NCBI GenBank assembly: GCA_030692565.1
Contig: JAUYAO010000059.1
Span: 62,001-126,000, forward strand
Source: Nitrospira sp.
GTDB taxonomy: Bacteria; Nitrospirota; Nitrospiria; Nitrospirales; Nitrospiraceae
Direction of reading: 5' to 3'
Length of the DNA stretch: 64,000 bases
This document shows, piece after piece, positions 2,377-24,220 of the stretch. The notes beneath the pieces were generated by a model, which did not search any database, was not told the origin of the DNA, and was given only the letters and a program-made list of their open reading frames with translations. Every line of letters begins with the position of its first letter. The first letter of the stretch is position 1. The translations under genes and the position numbers were made by a program.

Positions 2377-4197
2377 CTATTTCAGCGGCGGCACTTCACG
2401 TCGCTTCGGGGCTGCGTAGTTTACGAGATAGTCGAACAGCCGAATCAGGCGGCTGTCCTGACGCTTCTGATCCACCCAGTGGCCGATCAAGCCGATCGTC
2501 CGCGAGAGGATGAAGAATCCGTTCAAACTATCGACCGGGAATCCGATATCGACCAACACGGCCGCCATCGTTCCGTCCACGTTGAGGATCAAGTTATCCT
2601 TCTTCGCCGCCGTGACCTGCTCGACCTGCAACGCAAAGTCGAGGCACGGGGTCTTGATGGGCAGGCTCTTCACATACCCCACCAACTCCTTCACCCGCTT
2701 GTCCGGATTGCGGAGGCTCTTCACGCGATGGCCGATGCCGGGCACCGGGCCATGATTCTTCTTCATGTAGGTCAGGAATTCATCGACCGTCATCTTGTTA
2801 TCGGCGGCATGTTTGAAAAAGCGTCCGGCATCGGTGACGGCGCCGCCGAAGCGGGGGCCGATCATGATGAGCCCCGCGGCCACTGACTGGGACAGGCCGA
2901 TCCCGGCGCAGGCCGCGATGATCGTCCCCAACGCACCGCTCACGCAGGGGCCATGGTCGGCTGAGAGCATCATGATGCGCTTGATGATTTCGGCTTCCTG
3001 CTTGGAGATCAACCGCTTGTCCCACAAGAGTCCGACGACATGGGGAATTTCGTAGCCCTTGTTGATGAGCTCGGACGCGGGATATCCGTCGTAGCAGGGT
3101 TCGTCTCCGCGATCGTCGCTGATCGTGGTGCGAATCAACGGAGTGACCATGACTTCATCGGCCTTCATGGCCGCTTCAATACTCTTGGGCAACTTCGGCA
3201 GTGAGGCCGGCTCGACCGGTTCCTTTACCTGGCCGGACTTCAACATGTCCTGATAGACGTCCTTGATCGCCGGACCGAGCGCCCCGAAGGTCGCCGGCAC
3301 AATCGCACCGGACTTTTTGAGGGCATCGGACTTGGACCGGGCCGACCCTTCGCCCTTCAATCCCTCTTTCGCGCCCGCGTGACCGAACTTCATTCCCTTC
3401 GGCAAACTTTCCTGGCAGAAGCCGGAGACCACAGCCATCAACTTCACGCGCCGCTTCTTGGCGCCGTACCACTCAGCCGCGCGCTCTTCGAGATCGCCGC
3501 CCATTTCGCCGACAATGATGACCGCTTTCGTCTGCGGATCGTTCTCGAACATTTCGAGATAGCTCACATAGTCAGTTCCCGGATAGGCGTCGCCGCCGAT
3601 GCCGATGGCCGTCGTAATGCCGTCAGCAAACTGCGAACAGATCCAGATAATTTCGTTGGAGAGACCGCCAGACTTAGTGATGACGCCAAAAGAACCTTCG
3701 CGATAGAGCTTGGACAACACGAGATTATCGAACGCACCGCCGATGACACCGAGGCGGCAGGATCCGGCCGACACAATACCGATCGACGAGGGGCCGTTAA
3801 ACACCTTGCTGAGCTTTCTGGCATGGGCCCCGAGGATCTTGGCGTCCTTCTCTGGCACGCCTTCCGTGATCATCGACACCACCTTGATGTGCGTATCGTC
3901 GAGGGCTTCCATCCCACCCTTCATGGCACGATCGGCACCGATGTAGACGAGGCTGGTATTGATCTGAGGATGGTGCTTGGTGGCTTCGGCGACCGTTTTA
4001 TAGATGGGGACTGCAACCAGACCGCTTCCGTAGGGAATCTCGTGCGTCTTGCCGGCATCCGGCGGATAGACAAAGGCCAGGACGTTCAGCGAACGCTTGA
4101 TCAGATAGCAGAACTCGGCCATCCGGCGCGCGGCGTTGACGCCTGCCACGCCGCCCTGAATGACCACATAGGTATCTTTGTTTGCCAGGATACTCAT
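2377..4197 (-). CDS. aclA: ATP-citrate lyase alpha subunit
   Basis: Large subunit of ATP-citrate lyase, which cleaves citrate to acetyl-CoA and oxaloacetate at the expense of ATP and is the key step of the reductive TCA cycle. The N-terminal half is succinyl-CoA-synthetase-alpha-like with the phospho-histidine motif GHAGAKEG (H273). The C-terminal half is citrate-synthase-like, with HGPCVSGA, GPRFGGA and PGIGHRVKS. The length of 606 residues fits the two-subunit bacterial enzyme. It lies between aclB (87 bases upstream, a gap filled by heptamer repeats) and acn. The reading frame is intact. Confidence 0.96.
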   Translation of the reverse strand: MSILANKDTYVVIQGGVAGVNAARRMAEFCYLIKRSLNVLAFVYPPDAGKTHEIPYGSGLVAVPIYKTVAEATKHHPQINTSLVYIGADRAMKGGMEALDDTHIKVVSMITEGVPEKDAKILGAHARKLSKVFNGPSSIGIVSAGSCRLGVIGGAFDNLVLSKLYREGSFGVITKSGGLSNEIIWICSQFADGITTAIGIGGDAYPGTDYVSYLEMFENDPQTKAVIIVGEMGGDLEERAAEWYGAKKRRVKLMAVVSGFCQESLPKGMKFGHAGAKEGLKGEGSARSKSDALKKSGAIVPATFGALGPAIKDVYQDMLKSGQVKEPVEPASLPKLPKSIEAAMKADEVMVTPLIRTTISDDRGDEPCYDGYPASELINKGYEIPHVVGLLWDKRLISKQEAEIIKRIMMLSADHGPCVSGALGTIIAACAGIGLSQSVAAGLIMIGPRFGGAVTDAGRFFKHAADNKMTVDEFLTYMKKNHGPVPGIGHRVKSLRNPDKRVKELVGYVKSLPIKTPCLDFALQVEQVTAAKKDNLILNVDGTMAAVLVDIGFPVDSLNGFFILSRTIGLIGHWVDQKRQDSRLIRLFDYLVNYAAPKRREVPPLK

Positions 4198-14665: not shown

Positions 14666-14931
14666 CCGCAGCCCACTCTCACAAATAATCCTCCCTCCAC
14701 TTCCGTAGTTTCTACAGATTCACCCAAGTTCCGTTTCGTTTTCTTCATTTTCTAACTCAACCAGTCCTCAAGCGACTGTCACTACCCACCGATACACTGC
14801 TTGAAGGGATGCGTGTGCCCGACTGCCGGGTGCCGCCATTTATCTAGAACTCTGGCCGTTGCGCAACGAGCCCGGGAATTTTGAGACAGCATGGCTCAGC
14901 CAAAGAGATTGGGATTCTCACAGGAGGCAGC
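14666..14931. other. Intergenic region before the FIST gene
   Basis: These 266 bases are pyrimidine-rich in the first part (14680-14760) and carry no convincing promoter, hairpin or gene that I can see, apart from the AGGAGG that serves the ATG at 14932. Confidence 0.5.
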
Positions 14932-16074
14932 ATGAAACTCTCGACGTGTACGTATCCAGCATCTCATCACACTCCAATCGCGAGCCATCCTCTCAAGGAT
15001 CCTGCGCGGACACTCGTTATTCTCTTCGGCCCTTCGCACTTGATGGACGCTCCGGGCCCCATCCAAACAGTCCTGACCGCCTACGCCGGCGCCGCGGCCA
15101 TCGGCTGCTCCAGCTCAGGGGAAATTTTCGGCACGCAAGTTCAGGACGATACCCTGGTCGTCGGACTCGTAGAGTTCGACTCCACCACCGTCCGTACTGC
15201 GTCGGCTCAGGTTACCGATCCAGGCCATTCCTTCGAAGCGGCACAGGCGCTTGCACATCAATTGATGGATCCCGCGCTCCGCGGCGTCCTGGTGCTCTCC
15301 GACGGACTGGGCGTCAACGGCAGTGAACTGATCCGCGGACTGAACGCAGTACTCCCGGCACAGGTGGTGGTCTCGGGAGGCTTGGCGGGCGACGGCGACC
15401 GGTTTAAGCGGACCTGGGTCATTAAAGACGGACTTCCGGTCGCTGGTCATGTCACAGCAGTCGGGCTCTATGGCTCCGCGATCCGGCTCACCCACGGATC
15501 CAAAGGCGGATGGGATCTCTTCGGACCGGAACGGCTCATCACCCGTTCCAAAGGAAACGTGCTCTTTGAGTTGAACCAGAAGCCGGCGCTCCAACTCTAC
15601 AAAGACTACCTGGGTGAACTCGCGAATGGACTGCCGGGCACCGCGCTCCTTTTTCCCCTCGCGATCCGGCAGACGCAGCAAGACGCCAAACGGCTGGTCC
15701 GCACGATCCTCGCCGTCGACGAGGGCGCTCAATCCCTGACGTTTGCGGGCGATATGCCGGAGGGAGCCTACGCCCAGTTTATGCGCGCCAATTTCGACCG
15801 GTTGATTCAAGGCGCCTCCGACGCGGCCACTGCGGCGGCCGCCCCGAACACGGAGCCTTCGCCGATGCTGTCGATTGCCATCAGCTGCGTCGGACGGCGC
15901 CTCGTGCTGGGTGAACGGACCGAAGAAGAAGTCGAAGCAGCCTTCGATGTGTTGCCTAAAGGCGCGGCACAGATCGGATTCTATTCCTATGGCGAGATCT
16001 CGCCCTACAGCACGGGACAATGCGATCTCCACAATCAGACCATGACCCTGACCACGATTTCAGAGGCCGCCTGA
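14932..16074 (+). CDS. FIST-domain sensory protein
   Basis: A 380-residue protein with a FIST N domain followed by a FIST C domain, a sensory module thought to bind small ligands such as amino acids. Seen directly: the GCSSSGEIFG motif near residue 60, SGGLAGDGDRFKRTWV near residue 145, and the C-terminal GFYSYGEISP, which is the hallmark of FIST C. The start is the ATG with AGGAGG six bases upstream. The next gene, a giant hybrid histidine kinase, begins eight bases after its stop, which suggests that FIST feeds a signal into that kinase. Confidence 0.88.
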   Translation: MKLSTCTYPASHHTPIASHPLKDPARTLVILFGPSHLMDAPGPIQTVLTAYAGAAAIGCSSSGEIFGTQVQDDTLVVGLVEFDSTTVRTASAQVTDPGHSFEAAQALAHQLMDPALRGVLVLSDGLGVNGSELIRGLNAVLPAQVVVSGGLAGDGDRFKRTWVIKDGLPVAGHVTAVGLYGSAIRLTHGSKGGWDLFGPERLITRSKGNVLFELNQKPALQLYKDYLGELANGLPGTALLFPLAIRQTQQDAKRLVRTILAVDEGAQSLTFAGDMPEGAYAQFMRANFDRLIQGASDAATAAAAPNTEPSPMLSIAISCVGRRLVLGERTEEEVEAAFDVLPKGAAQIGFYSYGEISPYSTGQCDLHNQTMTLTTISEAA

Positions 16075-16082
16075 GGCTGACG

Positions 16083-19000
16083 ATGCATCCACTGCTGCAA
16101 CGACAACTGAAGCGACTGGGCCTCGACCCGGCAACTTGCCCGACGGACCCGGCAGGCTGGCAGGCTATGCTGGATCGCGTCAGTCAAAGCTATGTCGAAA
16201 ACGATCAAGGCAGAGCCCTGCTGGAACAATCCCTCGACGTCACCTCTCGGGAGATGCAGGGGTTGTACGAAGACCTCCGGCGGTCCGGAGAAACAGAGTT
16301 GGCAGAGGAGCGGAACAAACTCGAAGCCGTCCTCCACTCGCTCGGCGACGGGCTCTGCGTCGTCGATGTGCAGTGGAAGATCGTCCTCATGAATCCGCTG
16401 GCCGAAGAGTTGCTCGGCGAGCCTCTGGCGAATCTGGCAGGCCAGCCGGTGTACCACTTTCTCTCGCCGGGCCCCGAAGAGTTCAGCCACGAATGCCTCA
16501 TCACGGACACGTCGATTCCGCCGCTCGAACAAGGCATTCCCTTCCGCACCGATGATGGCATTCTCTTGCGGGGCGACGGCCAGATGATGCCGATCTCGCT
16601 CGTCGTCACGCCCATCTCAACCGACGGCGTCGTGAACGGTGCCGTGCTGGTGTTCCGGAATATCACCGCCCAGAAACAGGCGGAAGAACAACGGACAGAG
16701 AGCGCAGCGCTGCTCCGACGGGTGCAGGCCGGGCTGCTGGAACTAGCCACGAATAGCGACCTCTATCGCGGAGAACTCTCCGACGCCTTCCACGTCATTA
16801 CGCGGGTCGCCTCGCAGAGTCTGCGCGTGGCTCGCGCCAGCGTCTGGTTTTTCACCGACGCGCACTCAGCCATTCGCTGCGCCGACCTGTTCGAGCAGGC
16901 GACCGAGACCTATTCAAACGGAGCGGAACTGCCCGCCACCGGCTTCCCCCGATACTTTGCGGAGCTGGCAACGGAAGATGTCATTGTCGCCAACCAGGCC
17001 CAGACCGATCCCAAGACATCGGAATTCGCCGCCAGCTATCTCATTCCGCTCGGCATTACCTCTATGCTGGATGTCCCGATCCGGTCGGAAGGGAAGATGG
17101 TCGGCGTCATCTGCCACGAACATATCGGACCGGCCAGAGTCTGGACTGCGGAAGAACAACAGTTCGCCACCTCGGTCGCCAACACCGTCTCGCTCGTTTT
17201 GGAAGCCTCGGACCGCCGCAACGCGGAGCAGGCCCTCCGTGACAACGAAGAGAAATATCGCGGCCTGTTCGAATCATCGCAAGACGCGATCATGATCCTC
17301 TCCCCGCCGGACTGGAAATTCTCCGCCTGTAACCCGGCCACGGTCGCGCTGTTCGGAGCCCGGAGCATCGAACATTTCGCCACGCTCGGCCCCTGGGACG
17401 TCTCGCCCCCTGTCCAACCGGACAGCGAACCGTCCGGGAGCAAAGCTCCGAAGATGATCATGCAAGCCCTGCAGAAGGGTTCTCACTTCTTTGAATGGAC
17501 CCATAAGAAAATCGACGGGCCCGACTTCCCGGCGACCGTCTTACTCACACGCGTCACCTTGCACGGCCAGACCAGTCTGCAAGCCACCGTCCGCGATGTA
17601 ACCGTGCAGAAGCGTGCGGAAGAGGCCTTGCGAAAAAGCGAGGCCCGGACAAGGATGATCATCAACTCGGCCCTCGCTGCCGTCGTCACGATCAATGACC
17701 GCGGATCCATCGTGGAGTGGAATCCCCGAGCCGAGGCGATCTTTGGATGGTCTGCCGCTGAGGCCTGCGGGCGGAATTTGGCAGACACGATCATTCCACT
17801 CCGATTCCGCGCAGCTCATCACACAGGCATCGAGACTTTCCTTCGCACAGGCGCGGGGCCCATTCTCGACCAGCGCATTGAAGTCATGGCCCTTCGGCGG
17901 GATGGCGCGGAATTCCCTGCCGAATTGGCCGTGACCGCGCTCCGGATTGATGCAGGCTTCACGTTTACCGCGTTCATCGCCGATATCAGTGAGCGCAAGC
18001 GAGCAGAGGCGGCACTCCAAGAGCTATCCACCTTTCAAAAAGCCATGCTGGACAACGCCGGCCACGCCATCATTTCCACCACGCCCGATGGGATCATTCG
18101 CCTCTTCAATCCTGCGGCTGAATCGTTACTCGGCTATCGCACAGACGAACTCATCGGGAAACAGACACTCGCGGTCTTCCACGATCCGGAGGAGGTGTCG
18201 GCGCGCGCGCATCTCTTCTCGGCGGAACTCGGCGTCCCGATCGAACCGGGCTTCGATGTCTTCGTCGAAAAAAGCCGGCGAGGTCTGCCCAATGAGCATG
18301 AGTGGACCTACATCCGGAAAGACGGCACTCGCCTGACGGTCCTGCTGAACGTCACCGCTCTTCGAGATGCAGAAGGACACATCACCTCATTCTTAGGGAT
18401 CGCCTCAGACATTACCTCGCTCAAAATTGTCGAACGAGAGTTGATCACCGCCAAAGAAGCCGCGGAGGCCGCGAGCGTGGCCAAATCGCAATTCCTCGCG
18501 AACATGAGCCACGAGATCCGGACCCCCATGAACGGCGTCCTCGGACTGGCGGCGCTCTTGGGGCAAACCCCCTTGAGCCCCAAGCAACAGCGCCTGACGA
18601 ACACCATCATACGATCCGGCAACTCGCTCCTGGATATCATCAACGACATTCTCGACTTTTCGAAGATCGAAGCGGGGAAACTGGAATTGGAACACACCGA
18701 TTTCCACCTGCGCATCCTGGTCGACGACGTGCTCGAATTGTTTGCGGCCCCCGCGCATCAGAAGCATCTGGAACTCATTGCCGATGTGGCCGACAGCGTC
18801 CCCGCTTTTGTCAAAGGCGACCCGGCTCGACTCCGCCAGATCCTGATCAATCTGATCGGCAATGCCATTAAGTTCACCGCTCAAGGGGAAGTGGTCGTGA
18901 GTATCGTCAGTATTGCAGAGGGGGAAGACCAATCGGTCCTCTGCTTCTCGGTCAAAGACTCCGGGATCGGCATCACCCCCGACGCCTTGCGCAACATTTT

Positions 19001-20453
19001 CCAGCCGTTTTCACAAGCCGACGGATCCACGACGAGAAAATACGGCGGCACCGGACTCGGTCTCGCCATTGCCAAACAGCTCGTCGCGTTCATGGGAGGT
19101 GAAATCTGGGCCGAGAGTCAGATGGGATCGGGAGCCACCTTCTTATTTACCGTGCATCTCGCCCATTCTCACCTGGGCAGCACCGGTGCGCTGGATTCGA
19201 AACAGGCATTGCCGAACCAGCGCGTCCTGGTCGTAGACGACAGTCCGACGGCTCGCCTCACGCTGGACCGCCAGCTGCGCCGCTGGGGAATCACCTCCAC
19301 CGTCGCCGAATCAGGCACGGCGGCGGTGCAGCTCCTCGCCAATGCCTTGGAGGACGGTCTCCCCTACGACACGGTCGTGCTCGATCTCGATATGCCCGGC
19401 ATAAACGGACTCGACACCGTTCGCGCTCTCCGTGACACGCTCCGCCACCATCACCCCCGCGTGATCCTCATGACGCCGGTCGAACGTGTGGACGCGGCGG
19501 AAGACCACACCGGGCTGATCGCGGCCACCCTCACGAAGCCCGTGAGACCTTCCGACCTTTACCGGGCCCTCTCCGGACAGACCGTCCAGGTCTCCTCATT
19601 CAGTCACCATCCTGAGCAGGAAGAGCGGACCCCTGCCAAGCCTCAAGGCTCGATCCTCCTCGCGGAGGACAACGCCGTGAATCAAGAAGTGACCCTGGGC
19701 ATGCTGGAGGTGCTGGGATGTACCGCCACAGCCGTTGAAAACGGACGACAGGCCATCGAGTTGCTTGCGAGCCAGTCCTTCTCGGTGATCCTCATGGATT
19801 GCCAGATGCCGGAGATGGACGGATTTGCAGCGACCCGCGCGATCCGTCGACAGGAGCAGAATACCGGCACAAGAATTCCGATCGTGGCCCTTACGGCCCA
19901 TGCCCTGCAGGGGGATCGGGAACTCTGCCTGGCGGCTGGCATGGACGACTACCTCAGTAAACCCTTCACCATCGAACAGTTGCGGACCGTGATCCACCGG
20001 TGGCTGCCATCTCCGTCACAACCGACTCAGGTGGATGCCGCTCAGGCATCAGCCGCTCCGCCAGCGGCCCCGGCCCCTCAAACCAATGAATCTCCCGTAG
20101 ATCCAAAGAGTTGGGACAGCATCACCAGCCTCCAACGTCCCGGACCGCCTGACCTGCTGGCCAAAGTCATCGGCCTCTATCTCAAGGATTCGCAGGGATT
20201 GGTCGATAAGATACTAGCGGCAACGCAAGGAAAGAACTTCGCCTCCCTGCGGGACACCGCCCATAGTTTGAAATCGCGCAGTGCGACGCTCGGAGCCTGG
20301 CAGGTCGCGGACCTCTGTAAACAGTTGGAAACCGGCGCACGAGAGCAAACCTTAGCCTGGACCGAAGCCGAACGGCTGGGCAGACAGTTACAACAGACCT
20401 TTACCGCAACCTGCGACATCTTTGAAGGTGAACGACAGAGGAGAGCGGCGTAA
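16083..20453 (+). CDS. Hybrid sensor histidine kinase (PAS-GAF-PAS-PAS-PAS-HisKA-HATPase-REC-REC-Hpt)
   Basis: A 1456-residue multi-step phosphorelay kinase with no obvious membrane segment, hence probably cytoplasmic. Order by eye: PAS (about 75-185), GAF (225-385), three further PAS-like domains (395-790), HisKA with H810 in NMSHEIRTPMNG, HATPase (DSGIGI and GGTGLGLAI), REC1 (D1101 in VLDLDMPG), REC2 (D1239 in LMDCQMPEMDG) and Hpt (H1394 in TAHSLKSR). It follows the FIST gene by eight bases and its TAA is directly followed by the ATG of the REC-PAS gene. The relay His-Asp-His would end on that receiver (D55). Confidence 0.92.
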   Translation: MHPLLQRQLKRLGLDPATCPTDPAGWQAMLDRVSQSYVENDQGRALLEQSLDVTSREMQGLYEDLRRSGETELAEERNKLEAVLHSLGDGLCVVDVQWKIVLMNPLAEELLGEPLANLAGQPVYHFLSPGPEEFSHECLITDTSIPPLEQGIPFRTDDGILLRGDGQMMPISLVVTPISTDGVVNGAVLVFRNITAQKQAEEQRTESAALLRRVQAGLLELATNSDLYRGELSDAFHVITRVASQSLRVARASVWFFTDAHSAIRCADLFEQATETYSNGAELPATGFPRYFAELATEDVIVANQAQTDPKTSEFAASYLIPLGITSMLDVPIRSEGKMVGVICHEHIGPARVWTAEEQQFATSVANTVSLVLEASDRRNAEQALRDNEEKYRGLFESSQDAIMILSPPDWKFSACNPATVALFGARSIEHFATLGPWDVSPPVQPDSEPSGSKAPKMIMQALQKGSHFFEWTHKKIDGPDFPATVLLTRVTLHGQTSLQATVRDVTVQKRAEEALRKSEARTRMIINSALAAVVTINDRGSIVEWNPRAEAIFGWSAAEACGRNLADTIIPLRFRAAHHTGIETFLRTGAGPILDQRIEVMALRRDGAEFPAELAVTALRIDAGFTFTAFIADISERKRAEAALQELSTFQKAMLDNAGHAIISTTPDGIIRLFNPAAESLLGYRTDELIGKQTLAVFHDPEEVSARAHLFSAELGVPIEPGFDVFVEKSRRGLPNEHEWTYIRKDGTRLTVLLNVTALRDAEGHITSFLGIASDITSLKIVERELITAKEAAEAASVAKSQFLANMSHEIRTPMNGVLGLAALLGQTPLSPKQQRLTNTIIRSGNSLLDIINDILDFSKIEAGKLELEHTDFHLRILVDDVLELFAAPAHQKHLELIADVADSVPAFVKGDPARLRQILINLIGNAIKFTAQGEVVVSIVSIAEGEDQSVLCFSVKDSGIGITPDALRNIFQPFSQADGSTTRKYGGTGLGLAIAKQLVAFMGGEIWAESQMGSGATFLFTVHLAHSHLGSTGALDSKQALPNQRVLVVDDSPTARLTLDRQLRRWGITSTVAESGTAAVQLLANALEDGLPYDTVVLDLDMPGINGLDTVRALRDTLRHHHPRVILMTPVERVDAAEDHTGLIAATLTKPVRPSDLYRALSGQTVQVSSFSHHPEQEERTPAKPQGSILLAEDNAVNQEVTLGMLEVLGCTATAVENGRQAIELLASQSFSVILMDCQMPEMDGFAATRAIRRQEQNTGTRIPIVALTAHALQGDRELCLAAGMDDYLSKPFTIEQLRTVIHRWLPSPSQPTQVDAAQASAAPPAAPAPQTNESPVDPKSWDSITSLQRPGPPDLLAKVIGLYLKDSQGLVDKILAATQGKNFASLRDTAHSLKSRSATLGAWQVADLCKQLETGAREQTLAWTEAERLGRQLQQTFTATCDIFEGERQRRAA

Positions 20454-21233
20454 ATGAATTCCACCCCACTGGCCCTGATCGTTGACGATGACATCACATT
20501 GCGTGTGCTTGCGCGGGAAGCGCTGGAACAAGCCGGATGCCGGGTCGAGGATGCCGCGACAGGACAGGAAGCCCTCGAGGCCTTTCAGCGGGAAACACCC
20601 GACATCATCCTTTTGGACGTCGTCATGCCGGGGATGGATGGGTTCGCGACCTGCGCGGCACTCCGCAAGCTGCCCGGAGGGGCTTCTGTACCCATCCTCA
20701 TCATGACCGGCCTCGACGATGTGAAGTCCATCGCCACCGCCTACGACGCGGGCGCAACCGACTTTGTGACGAAGCCTTGGAACGCCCTCGTGCTCAGCCA
20801 TCGGGTCCGCTATATGCTGCGCGCCAGCCAGGCCGTGGAAGAGCTTCTGGAACGCGAGATGAGTCTGGCCGAAGCCCAACGGATCGCCCGCCTGGGCAAC
20901 TGGAAATGGAACTTGTCGACGAACCGGTTTATCGCCTCCACCCAAACGTTCCGCATTCTGGGCATCAACGCGGATCCCTATTCCACGGCGCTGTCGGTTG
21001 AGGAATTCCTCGGTCATATTTACGAAACTGATCGACCGGCGGTCGAGTCCGGCATCCGTCAAGCCATCGCCACCGGAGCCCCCTTCCGCCAGGATCATCG
21101 GGTCCACATGCCCACCGGAGACGTGCGCGTCGTCCATCACTATGCCGAAGTGGCCTTCGAACAAGGCGGCGCCGCGACCAGCATCGTCGGCACGATTCAG
21201 GATATTACCGAGCCTGTTGCACAAACCCCTTGA
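20454..21233 (+). pseudogene. REC-PAS 5' part of an IS-split REC-PAS-GGDEF-EAL gene
   Basis: A receiver domain (D55 in LLDVVMPGMDG, K in FVTKPW) and a PAS domain ending in the typical GTIQDIT linker. The last seven codons (EPVAQTP) and the stop come from an insertion sequence that begins at 21210. The genuine coding part is 20454-21209 and continues in frame at 22838 with DQKKAEAQI, where the GGDEF-EAL half starts. A truncated 259-residue REC-PAS protein could still be made and accept phosphate from the kinase upstream, but without its output domains. The start ATG abuts the kinase stop codon. Confidence 0.9.
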
Positions 21234-21257
21234 CACCTAGGTAATACTATGTATAGT
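21230..21257 (+). promoter_or_regulatory. Promoter inside the IS left end
   Basis: TTGACA (21230-21235) and TATAGT (21252-21257) with a 16-base spacer directly follow the left inverted repeat. They are well placed to drive the transposase and possibly the GGDEF-EAL remnant downstream. Confidence 0.65.
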
Positions 21258-21288
21258 AGGCGCCCAGGACCTCCTAGAGGGTGACACG

Positions 21289-22719
21289 ATGGGCCACCAC
21301 TTTTTGCCGGGTGAGCGCGACCAACTCTATCTGATGCCCCCTGCGTTGTAGGACTGGCTGCCGGAAGGCGATCTGGCGTGGTTCATCCTGGACGCGGTGG
21401 CCCAGATGAACTTGACGGCCATGACCCGGACCTATCGAGCAGATGGCTGGGGACCGGCGGCGTACGAGCCGGCCATGAGGGTGGCGCTGTTGCTCTATGC
21501 GTACTGCCTGGGGGAGCGGTCGAGTCGACGGATCGAGCGGCTGTGCCAGCGGGATGTGGCCTTTCGAGTGATCACGGCCAATCAGGTCCCCGATCACACG
21601 ACGATAGCCCGATTCCGGCAGACCCACGAGATCGAACTGGCTAAGCTGTTTACGCAGGTGCTCCGGCTCTGTGCGGAGGCGGGGCTGGTGCAGGTGGGGG
21701 TGGTGGCGTTGGACGGCACGAAGATCAAGGCCAACGCGGCGCTGGCGTCGAATCGGACGGTCGAGACGATCACCGCAGAGGTCTCCCGGATGCTGACCGA
21801 GGCCCAGGCCACGGATGCGGCTGAGGATCGGCCGTATGGCCCGGAGCGGTGCGGCGACGAACTGCCGGAGGACTTGCGGGATCGGAAGAGCCGGCTGGCT
21901 CGGTTGCACGCGTGCCAGGAGCGGTTGACGCAGGAGGCGGCCACGGCCACCGAGCAGCAGCAGGCCAAGATCGAGACGCGGCAGGCCGAAGAGGCCGCCA
22001 CTGGGCAGAAGAAGCGAGGCCGCAAACCGAAGGCGGCCGCGGCGGCCGCGGACCGCGACGCCAAGGCCAATGTGACAGATCCGGATAGCCGCATCATGAA
22101 GACGCAGGCCGGGTACGTCCAAGGCTACAACGCCCAAGCGGTGGTGACGGAGGACCAGATCATCGTGGCGGCCGAGGTGACGCAGGAGGAGAAGGACATC
22201 AAGCAATTGCACCCGATGCTGGAACGGGCGCAGGCGAATCTCACGGCCATCGCGTATCCGCAAGCGGTCGGGACGGCCCTGGCCGATGCGGGCTATTGCA
22301 GCGAGGCCCATCTGATGGAGGCAGATCCGAACGGGCCCGCCCTGTTGATTGCCACAAACAAGGACTGGAAACAGCGCAAGGCGCTGCGGGAGCAGCCGCC
22401 GCCACGCGGCCGCTATCCGAAGGGGCTGACGGCCCGCGACCGCATGGAGCGCACGTTGCTGACGAAGCACGGCCGCCGCCTCTACAAGAAGCGCGGCCAG
22501 ACCGTGGACCCAGTGTTCGGACAGATCAAGAGTGCCCGGGGCTGTGACGGATTTATGCGCCGCGGCACGGCCGCCTGTGCCAGCGAGTGGAAACTGCTCG
22601 GTGCCACGCATAATCTGCTGAAGCTCTGGCGAAACGGAAAGGCGGGCTGGATCAGTCGACGCACGGGCCGCGCCCCACAGCGGTGTGGCCGGGGAAGGGG
22701 AAAGAAGGCAGGGGGATGA
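21289..22719 (+). pseudogene. IS1182-family transposase with in-frame amber stop
   Basis: Reading from the ATG at 21289 gives a normal N terminus (FLPGERDQLYLMPPAL), then TAG at 21349-21351, then DWLPEGDLAWFILDAV and the rest of the transposase. A single C-to-T change from CAG would explain the stop. Downstream, a 440-codon reading can restart at GTG 21397. The catalytic region shows DGTKIKAN and DAGYCSEAHL, but the third acidic position reads TVDPVFGQ where this family normally has Glu (VEPVFG). This copy is therefore likely inactive or weak. A charged Ala/Lys-rich insertion lies near 22000-22070. Confidence 0.85.
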
Positions 22720-22813
22720 CCCTCTCGAAAGCTCCACTCCCTCACGGTCTCAGCAAGAAGAGACCCGGCTTGGCACACCAGGAAGCCCGTGCTGGGCACC
22801 AGACAGCTCGATC

Positions 22814-24220
22814 ATGGGTTTGAGCAACAGGCTCACCGATCAGAAAAAAGCCGAGGCCCAGATTCACTTCCTGTCGAACTACGACCGCCTCACCCAGTTG
22901 CCCAATCGCCAACTGTTCCAGGATCGCGTGACTCAGGCTCTGGCCACTCAGAAACGCCACGAGACACAAGGCGCCATTCTCCTCGTCAATCTTGACCGGT
23001 TTCAACGCATCAACGATACCCTCGGCCCGAAATGCGGAGATACGATTCTCCGCGAAGTGGCCGAACGGCTGCTCCATTGCGTGCGACAGTCCGACTCGGT
23101 GTCACGCCACGACGATCAGGAGCCCATCACACTCTCCCGACTGGGCGGGGACGAATTCACCGTGCTCCTGACCCATCTGGCTTCGGCACAGAGCGCCGCG
23201 AAAGTGACCCAGCGGATCCTGGAATCCCTCAATGCCCCTTACCAGATCGATGGCCGTCAGGTGGTGGTGACCGCCAGCATCGGGATTGCGCTGCTCGGAC
23301 AGGATGGTGAGGAAGTCGACACGCTGCTCCGCAACGCGGACGCGGCCGTCCATGCGGCGCAAGCGCAGGGACGGAACACCTATCAGTTCTATTCCCAGTC
23401 GATGAATGTGGCCTTGGCAGAACGGCTGAGTCTGGAATCGGATCTTCGCCAAGCTTTGGAGCGAAGCGAATTTGTGCTGCATTACCAGCCCCAGGTCGAC
23501 ATTCGCCGATGGGAGATCGTCGGCGTCGAAGCCCTCATCCGCTGGCAGCACCCGGAACGAGGCATGGTGTCTCCCATGACGTTTATTCCACTGGCCGAAG
23601 AGGTCGGGTTGATCGACCAAATCGGACAATGGGTGTTGCGCACCGCCTGCGCGCAGCAGGTCGCCTGGGGGGCCTACGGCCTCGGCGAAGTTTCCATCGC
23701 GGTCAACCTGTCGGGGGTCCAGTTTCAGCAAGCGAATCTCGTGGAGTCGATTCGCACGATTGTTCGTGAGACCGGGGCCAATCCCGCTCGTTTGGAACTG
23801 GAGCTGACGGAAAGCACCGCGATGCACGATGCAGAAAACGCGGTCGTGGTCTTTCAGCAACTCAAAACCATGGGATTCAGCCTGTCAATTGATGACTTCG
23901 GCACCGGCTATTCCTCGCTGGCCTATCTCAAGCGCTTCCCCATCGACACCATCAAGATCGACCGGGCCTTCGTCAAGGATCTCGCGTCAGAATCCGAACA
24001 GGCCGCGATCGCCATTGCCATCATCGCCATGGCCCATGGATTGAAGCTTCGCGTGCTGGCCGAAGGGGTCGAAACCCAGCCGCAGCTCGACATCCTGCGC
24101 GATCAGGGATGCGACGCCATTCAAGGCTACTTCTTCAGCCATCCCCTGCCGGCCGACCGTGTCGAGCAGCTGATCCGCGACCTCCGCGCGAAGAGCGACC
24201 ACGAGCGGCGCGCCGCGTAG
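22814..24220 (+). pseudogene. GGDEF-EAL 3' part of the IS-split c-di-GMP gene
   Basis: Original sequence resumes at 22838 (DQKKAEAQIHFL) and runs into a GGDEF domain with an intact RLGGDEF motif and an EAL domain with intact EALIRW and DDFGTGYSS motifs. Both active sites therefore look competent for making and breaking cyclic di-GMP. A start for the orphaned half is uncertain: ATG 22814 lies in the right inverted repeat, and a longer open frame begins at 22685 inside the IS; neither has a clear ribosome binding site. Joined to the 5' half it would be a protein of about 712 residues. It may persist as a constitutive, receiver-free enzyme. Confidence 0.88.

Follow-up and report, generated by a model that had tools for sequence, protein, structure and literature searches.

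The window, a 64,000-nucleotide stretch of a Nitrospira sp. contig (G000:C59:62001-126000), belongs to a 4.17-Mb draft assembly of 60 contigs with 2.14% estimated contamination. Within it lies an operon for a FIST-domain protein, a hybrid histidine kinase and a response regulator with a c-di-GMP output domain, and the last of these genes is interrupted by an insertion sequence. The features of the locus are:

14881..16074 (+): FIST-domain protein (FIST and FIST_C), upstream in the operon, the likely sensor; Pfam FIST 4.7e-45, FIST_C 1.1e-35
16020..20453 (+): hybrid histidine kinase (PAS/GAF, HisKA, HATPase, two REC, Hpt; Pfam); adjoins the response regulator in G030, G025, G022, G026 and G033
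20454..21233 (+): 5ʹ half of the split gene, REC (D55) and PAS; 252 native residues, a 7-residue element-encoded tail (EPVAQTP) and a stop
21207..21209 (no strand): left copy of the target-site duplication, ACC (ACCG counting the next G); from the junction against orthologues
21210..22834 (+): IS1182-family insertion sequence, 1625 bp, single copy in the assembly; from inverted repeats, own-genome search and relatives L052-L054
21210..21228 (+): left terminal inverted repeat; repeat search
21230..21257 (+): σ70-like promoter TTGACA-16-TATAGT, reading into the element; 11/12, a consensus match only
21289..22719 (+): transposase gene, interrupted in frame by TAG at codon 21 (21349-21351); open remainder from GTG 21397, 440 aa
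22814..22816 (+): ATG bordering the right repeat and sharing the frame of GGDEF-EAL (MGLSNRL-TDQKK); a hairpin of ordinary stability is predicted to pair it
22816..22834 (-): right terminal inverted repeat; repeat search
22835..24220 (+): 3ʹ half of the split gene, from the right ACC copy: GGDEF (degenerate, NLDRFQ replacing DLDRFK) and EAL (catalytic residues intact); Pfam and alignments

The first frame of the split gene opens at 20454, is native through the ACC codon at 21207-21209 and continues through the element-encoded tail to its end at 21233 (259 aa). Native sequence resumes at the second ACC (22835-22837) with DQKKAEAQI, and the GGDEF-EAL part runs to 24220. By Pfam, the first half carries REC (1.5e-28) and PAS_3, and the second carries GGDEF and EAL. 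The PAS domain is complete; therefore, the cut falls in the linker between PAS and GGDEF. The response-regulator residues are all present (DDD 11-13, D55, T85 and K107), in agreement with a preliminary description of this DNA that had called the phospho-acceptor D55 intact. Joined with a single ACC, the flanks encode a REC-PAS-GGDEF-EAL protein of 712 residues without a stop. The two parts had also been described as sharing a reading phase. This holds for the empty site but not for the DNA as it stands: a net gain of 1628 bp (3n+2) places the halves in different phases, which agree again only once the insert is taken out. Since the first base of the element is G, either ACC or ACCG may be taken as the duplication.

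The order of FIST protein, kinase and regulator is kept in G030, G025, G022 and G026, and the kinase and regulator are also paired in G033. The same set of functions occurs in NosP/NosK/NosR operons, which combine a FIST sensor and a histidine kinase with a c-di-GMP response regulator (PMC12570481). In contrast to those systems, the FIST protein here scores far below the cut-off of the NosP model (54.5 bits against 450), and the kinase, a large hybrid, has PAS/GAF domains of its own. With a weak NosP match and a place beside a c-di-GMP regulator, the FIST protein is a candidate sensor of NO or another small molecule. In the PAS region of the kinase (17051-17800), DNA identity with G030 falls to as low as 55%, against 94–99% around it, and the same stretch is not alignable with G026 or G025. 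This pattern suggests a swapped sensor segment.

An IS1182-family element with a nonsense codon

The terminal inverted repeats of the element are 19 nt long and match at 18 of 19 bp (95% complementary). The repeat core, scanned over the window, has two sites only, both of them the ends of the element. The left end is common to L052, L053 and L054, and the right end to L053. The closest relative, L052, lies on a Nitrospira lenta MAG contig and is 90% identical. Searches of the assembly and 58 relatives for further copies gave weak, partial matches only. The inverted repeats, the duplication and the uninterrupted orthologues described below bear out the earlier view that an insertion sequence had entered a c-di-GMP gene.

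The element shares with the IS1182 family a transposase with DUF772 and DDE domains (Pfam), terminal inverted repeats and a length of ~1.6 kb, and differs in the nonsense codon of its own transposase. Against the NCBIfam IS1182 model (cut-off 270), the full-length transposase of L052 scores 301.5 bits. The open remainder in the window scores 252.3 bits, with the match starting at model position 33, and it falls below the cut-off because the TAG removes the start. Since the codon aligned with the TAG is CAG in L052, L053 and L054, the three closest relatives, and the frame is otherwise intact (dN/dS 0.18 against L052), the nonsense change is taken to have arisen recently, and only in this copy or the one from which it directly came. 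The element is probably stranded, because its transposase carries the TAG and the genome has no other copy. A transposase restarted downstream of the TAG at GTG 21397 could keep some activity, since the DUF772 and DDE parts lie after the TAG. On the minus strand, a 487-aa frame (21274-22737) was rejected as a gene and taken to be a shadow of the transposase gene.

The element copy at L053 is flanked by TTAT/TTAT. By comparison of the flanks, the target duplication is 3–5 bp, depending on where the end of the element is drawn. Our literature search on IS1182 target duplications returned IS1272-type cases only; unlike IS1272, this insertion shows an ordinary duplication of 3–4 bp and no replaced palindrome (PMC5678879).

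Uninterrupted orthologues and the age of the insertion

A search of 59 genomes with the REC-PAS half found orthologues in G030 (97% identity), G026, G033, G025 and G022; further ones are those of G077, G065, G095, G094 and G060. All ten, from other genomes in the genus, are uninterrupted across the site. The sister gene in G030 has 97–98% amino-acid identity to the two flanks, and the flank alignments overlap by exactly the three ACC bases. At L005, the left flank aligns up to 2256 and the right flank from 2254, so that the two share 3 bp, exactly ACC. The same overlap is found at L006, L007, L008 and L009, giving five orthologues with the exact junction in all. Complete open frames are 712 aa long in G025, G022, G077, G065 and G095, and 710 aa long in G094; together with the joined frame, they support the ancestor of ~712 residues proposed in the preliminary description. 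Shorter frames in G030, G026 and G033 terminate at contig ends, away from the insertion site. The split gene is single-copy in its own assembly.

Two of the orthologues are unequally distant from the window copy in their two halves: REC-PAS and GGDEF-EAL give 92.9% and 97.4% for L139 (G065), and 93.7% and 85.2% for L140 (G095). The inequality suggests recombination inside the orthologous gene among relatives. In the G060 orthologue (L137, G060:C1, ~3207-3270), the frame changes right after GGDEF, leaving frames of 360 and 358 aa; either a separate disruption or an error in sequencing could account for this.

On the branch of the window copy, N:S is 5:11 for REC-PAS and 2:14 for GGDEF-EAL, with no difference from the G030 branch, and pairwise dN/dS is ~0.04–0.15 in both halves. 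As a sign of decay, we looked for relaxed selection on this branch and saw it in neither half; the changes are few, and mild relaxation or very recent decay is compatible with them. The event appears young because neither half shows relaxed selection. Among the sampled genomes, which are of other species, the data place the insertion after the split from G030, so recently, or with relaxation so slight, that no trace is left. The sister genomes without the element and the selection pattern of both halves thus agree with the earlier description of a recent event.

Ancestral activity

The best solved-structure matches over the GGDEF and EAL domains are the Pseudomonas GGDEF-EAL proteins MorA (PDB 4rnh, 1.6e-129) and MucR (PDB 5m3c, 3.6e-118). 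In alignment with these proteins and the orthologues, the EAL catalytic and metal residues (E, N, E, DD, K and E) are retained. MorA and MucR keep DLDRFK in the GGDEF domain, whereas the window copy and every orthologue covering the motif have NLDRFQ. Hence, the metal-binding Asp (PleD D327 position) is Asn in this gene and in every orthologue that covers the position. Several more distant homologues in the genus retain DLDRFK. In PleD, D327 and E370 coordinate metals, and D327 is reported to be essential (PMC7288161; PMC12943098). The GGDEF signature itself is present in the window copy (SRLGGDEF) and altered in some orthologues, to RGDEF in G022 and G077 and to GRDEF in G026. Both catalytic motifs had previously been described as intact; this stands for the EAL set but not for the GGDEF, which is without the metal-binding Asp in every orthologue.

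Because the EAL residues are intact and the GGDEF is without the metal-binding Asp, the ancestor was most likely a c-di-GMP phosphodiesterase with the GGDEF as a regulatory domain. In Caulobacter CC3396, a degenerate GGDEF binds GTP and activates the EAL (PMC7288161). The present family resembles phosphodiesterases of this type in having a GGDEF without a catalytic metal ligand beside an intact EAL. It differs in having REC-PAS in front and in the place of the change, which is chiefly the first Asp of DxD and not in every case the GGDEF signature. By analogy with CC3396, the GGDEF of the ancestral protein perhaps bound GTP.

Fate of the two halves

A single IS1182-family insertion entered the PAS-GGDEF linker after the split from G030, the nearest sampled relative, duplicating ACC(G) and leaving two domain-intact halves in different phases. 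The GGDEF was without a catalytic metal ligand already in the ancestor. We propose that the ancestral protein was a phosphorylation-controlled c-di-GMP phosphodiesterase with a regulatory GGDEF, and that the present allele has lost its regulated function. The REC-PAS stub would still be able to take phosphate from the kinase, without an output, and any GGDEF-EAL product would arise from a weak start at ATG 22814 in the right end of the element, on read-through RNA, and would be beyond the reach of the receiver. With its transposase broken, the element would be unlikely to move again by itself. We estimate a probability of roughly 0.88 for this reading, in which the insertion split a REC-PAS-GGDEF-EAL gene of a conserved operon, the ancestor was a phosphodiesterase and regulated function has now been lost. 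Its weakest step is the last: from the sequence features below, loss of regulated output is favoured over an active unregulated enzyme.

Could the two halves persist as separate proteins? A promoter and an ATG supplied by the element would then give a constitutive GGDEF-EAL phosphodiesterase, and REC-PAS would act as a phosphate sink or regulator. The promoter-like site at the left end of the element is strong, no terminator-like site was found on the + strand inside the element, and ATG 22814 is in frame. However, no good ribosome-binding site was seen before this ATG, which is predicted to be base-paired, albeit in a fold not better than shuffles. Moreover, the early TAG would leave the transposase message mostly untranslated from its own start, which should lower translation-protected read-through and would favour a Rho-dependent stop before the EAL. 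Both halves have complete domains and low N:S on their own branch, but low N:S is also expected if the event is simply young. We therefore regard two working proteins as unlikely. A stronger version, in which a signal-gated phosphodiesterase, the only EAL enzyme of the genome, has become an element-driven constitutive enzyme with a free REC-PAS phosphate sink, and in which this rewiring has been kept and is not a simple loss, is more doubtful still.

Two further features of the right end were considered. We do not claim an attenuator there, since the predicted fold is no more stable than shuffles. Starts and stops also overlap: the transposase stop overlaps ATG 22716, and a short frame ends at 22821-22823, past ATG 22814. 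Translational coupling to the EAL half through this chain was rejected, as the overlap is probably due to chance; ATG 22716 is absent in L052 (GGATAA).

An assembly artefact or contaminating sequence, with the element absent from the site in the living strain, might be suspected in a draft genome of 60 contigs with 2.14% estimated contamination, and relatives of the element are located in other genomes. This is very improbable, however, given that the element is single-copy and lies inside a 163.8-kb contig, and that a target-site duplication with matching inverted repeats is the signature of true transposition. An ancestral split, with the element arriving between two natural genes, has a negligible chance of being correct: each half does consist of complete domains, and GGDEF-EAL proteins commonly occur on their own, but ten orthologues, including the sister gene at 97–98%, are continuous over the junction, which refutes this explanation for the sampled genus. 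The preliminary description had proposed looking for relatives with separate halves and no element. This comparison was run in part, no such arrangement was found in any relative examined, and the claim of a gene split by the element stands.

The EAL domain of the split gene is the only one found in the 4.17-Mb assembly; across the genus, 48 of the 79 genomes searched have an EAL match, mostly one or two each. Loss of the protein would remove EAL-type hydrolysis, not HD-GYP-type hydrolysis. The disruption of a signalling gene by an insertion sequence is an ordinary, familiar event, and this case stands out slightly in that no second EAL protein was found, the empty site is documented to the base and the element is probably stranded. 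In one species of the genus, the sole EAL protein found has been knocked out or uncoupled naturally and in a well-documented way, and the uninterrupted orthologues in close relatives serve as ready controls. The case also draws attention to a clade of regulators with the order REC-PAS-GGDEF-EAL that have lost a GGDEF catalytic ligand and are encoded beside a FIST sensor and a hybrid kinase. Such a clade would lend itself to work on how c-di-GMP is broken down under signal control in bacteria that are uncultured or hard to culture.

The assembly also has 10 HD_5 (HD-GYP) matches, and its c-di-GMP receptors are many for so few GGDEF and EAL enzymes: 42 PilZ matches versus 7 GGDEF and 1 EAL.
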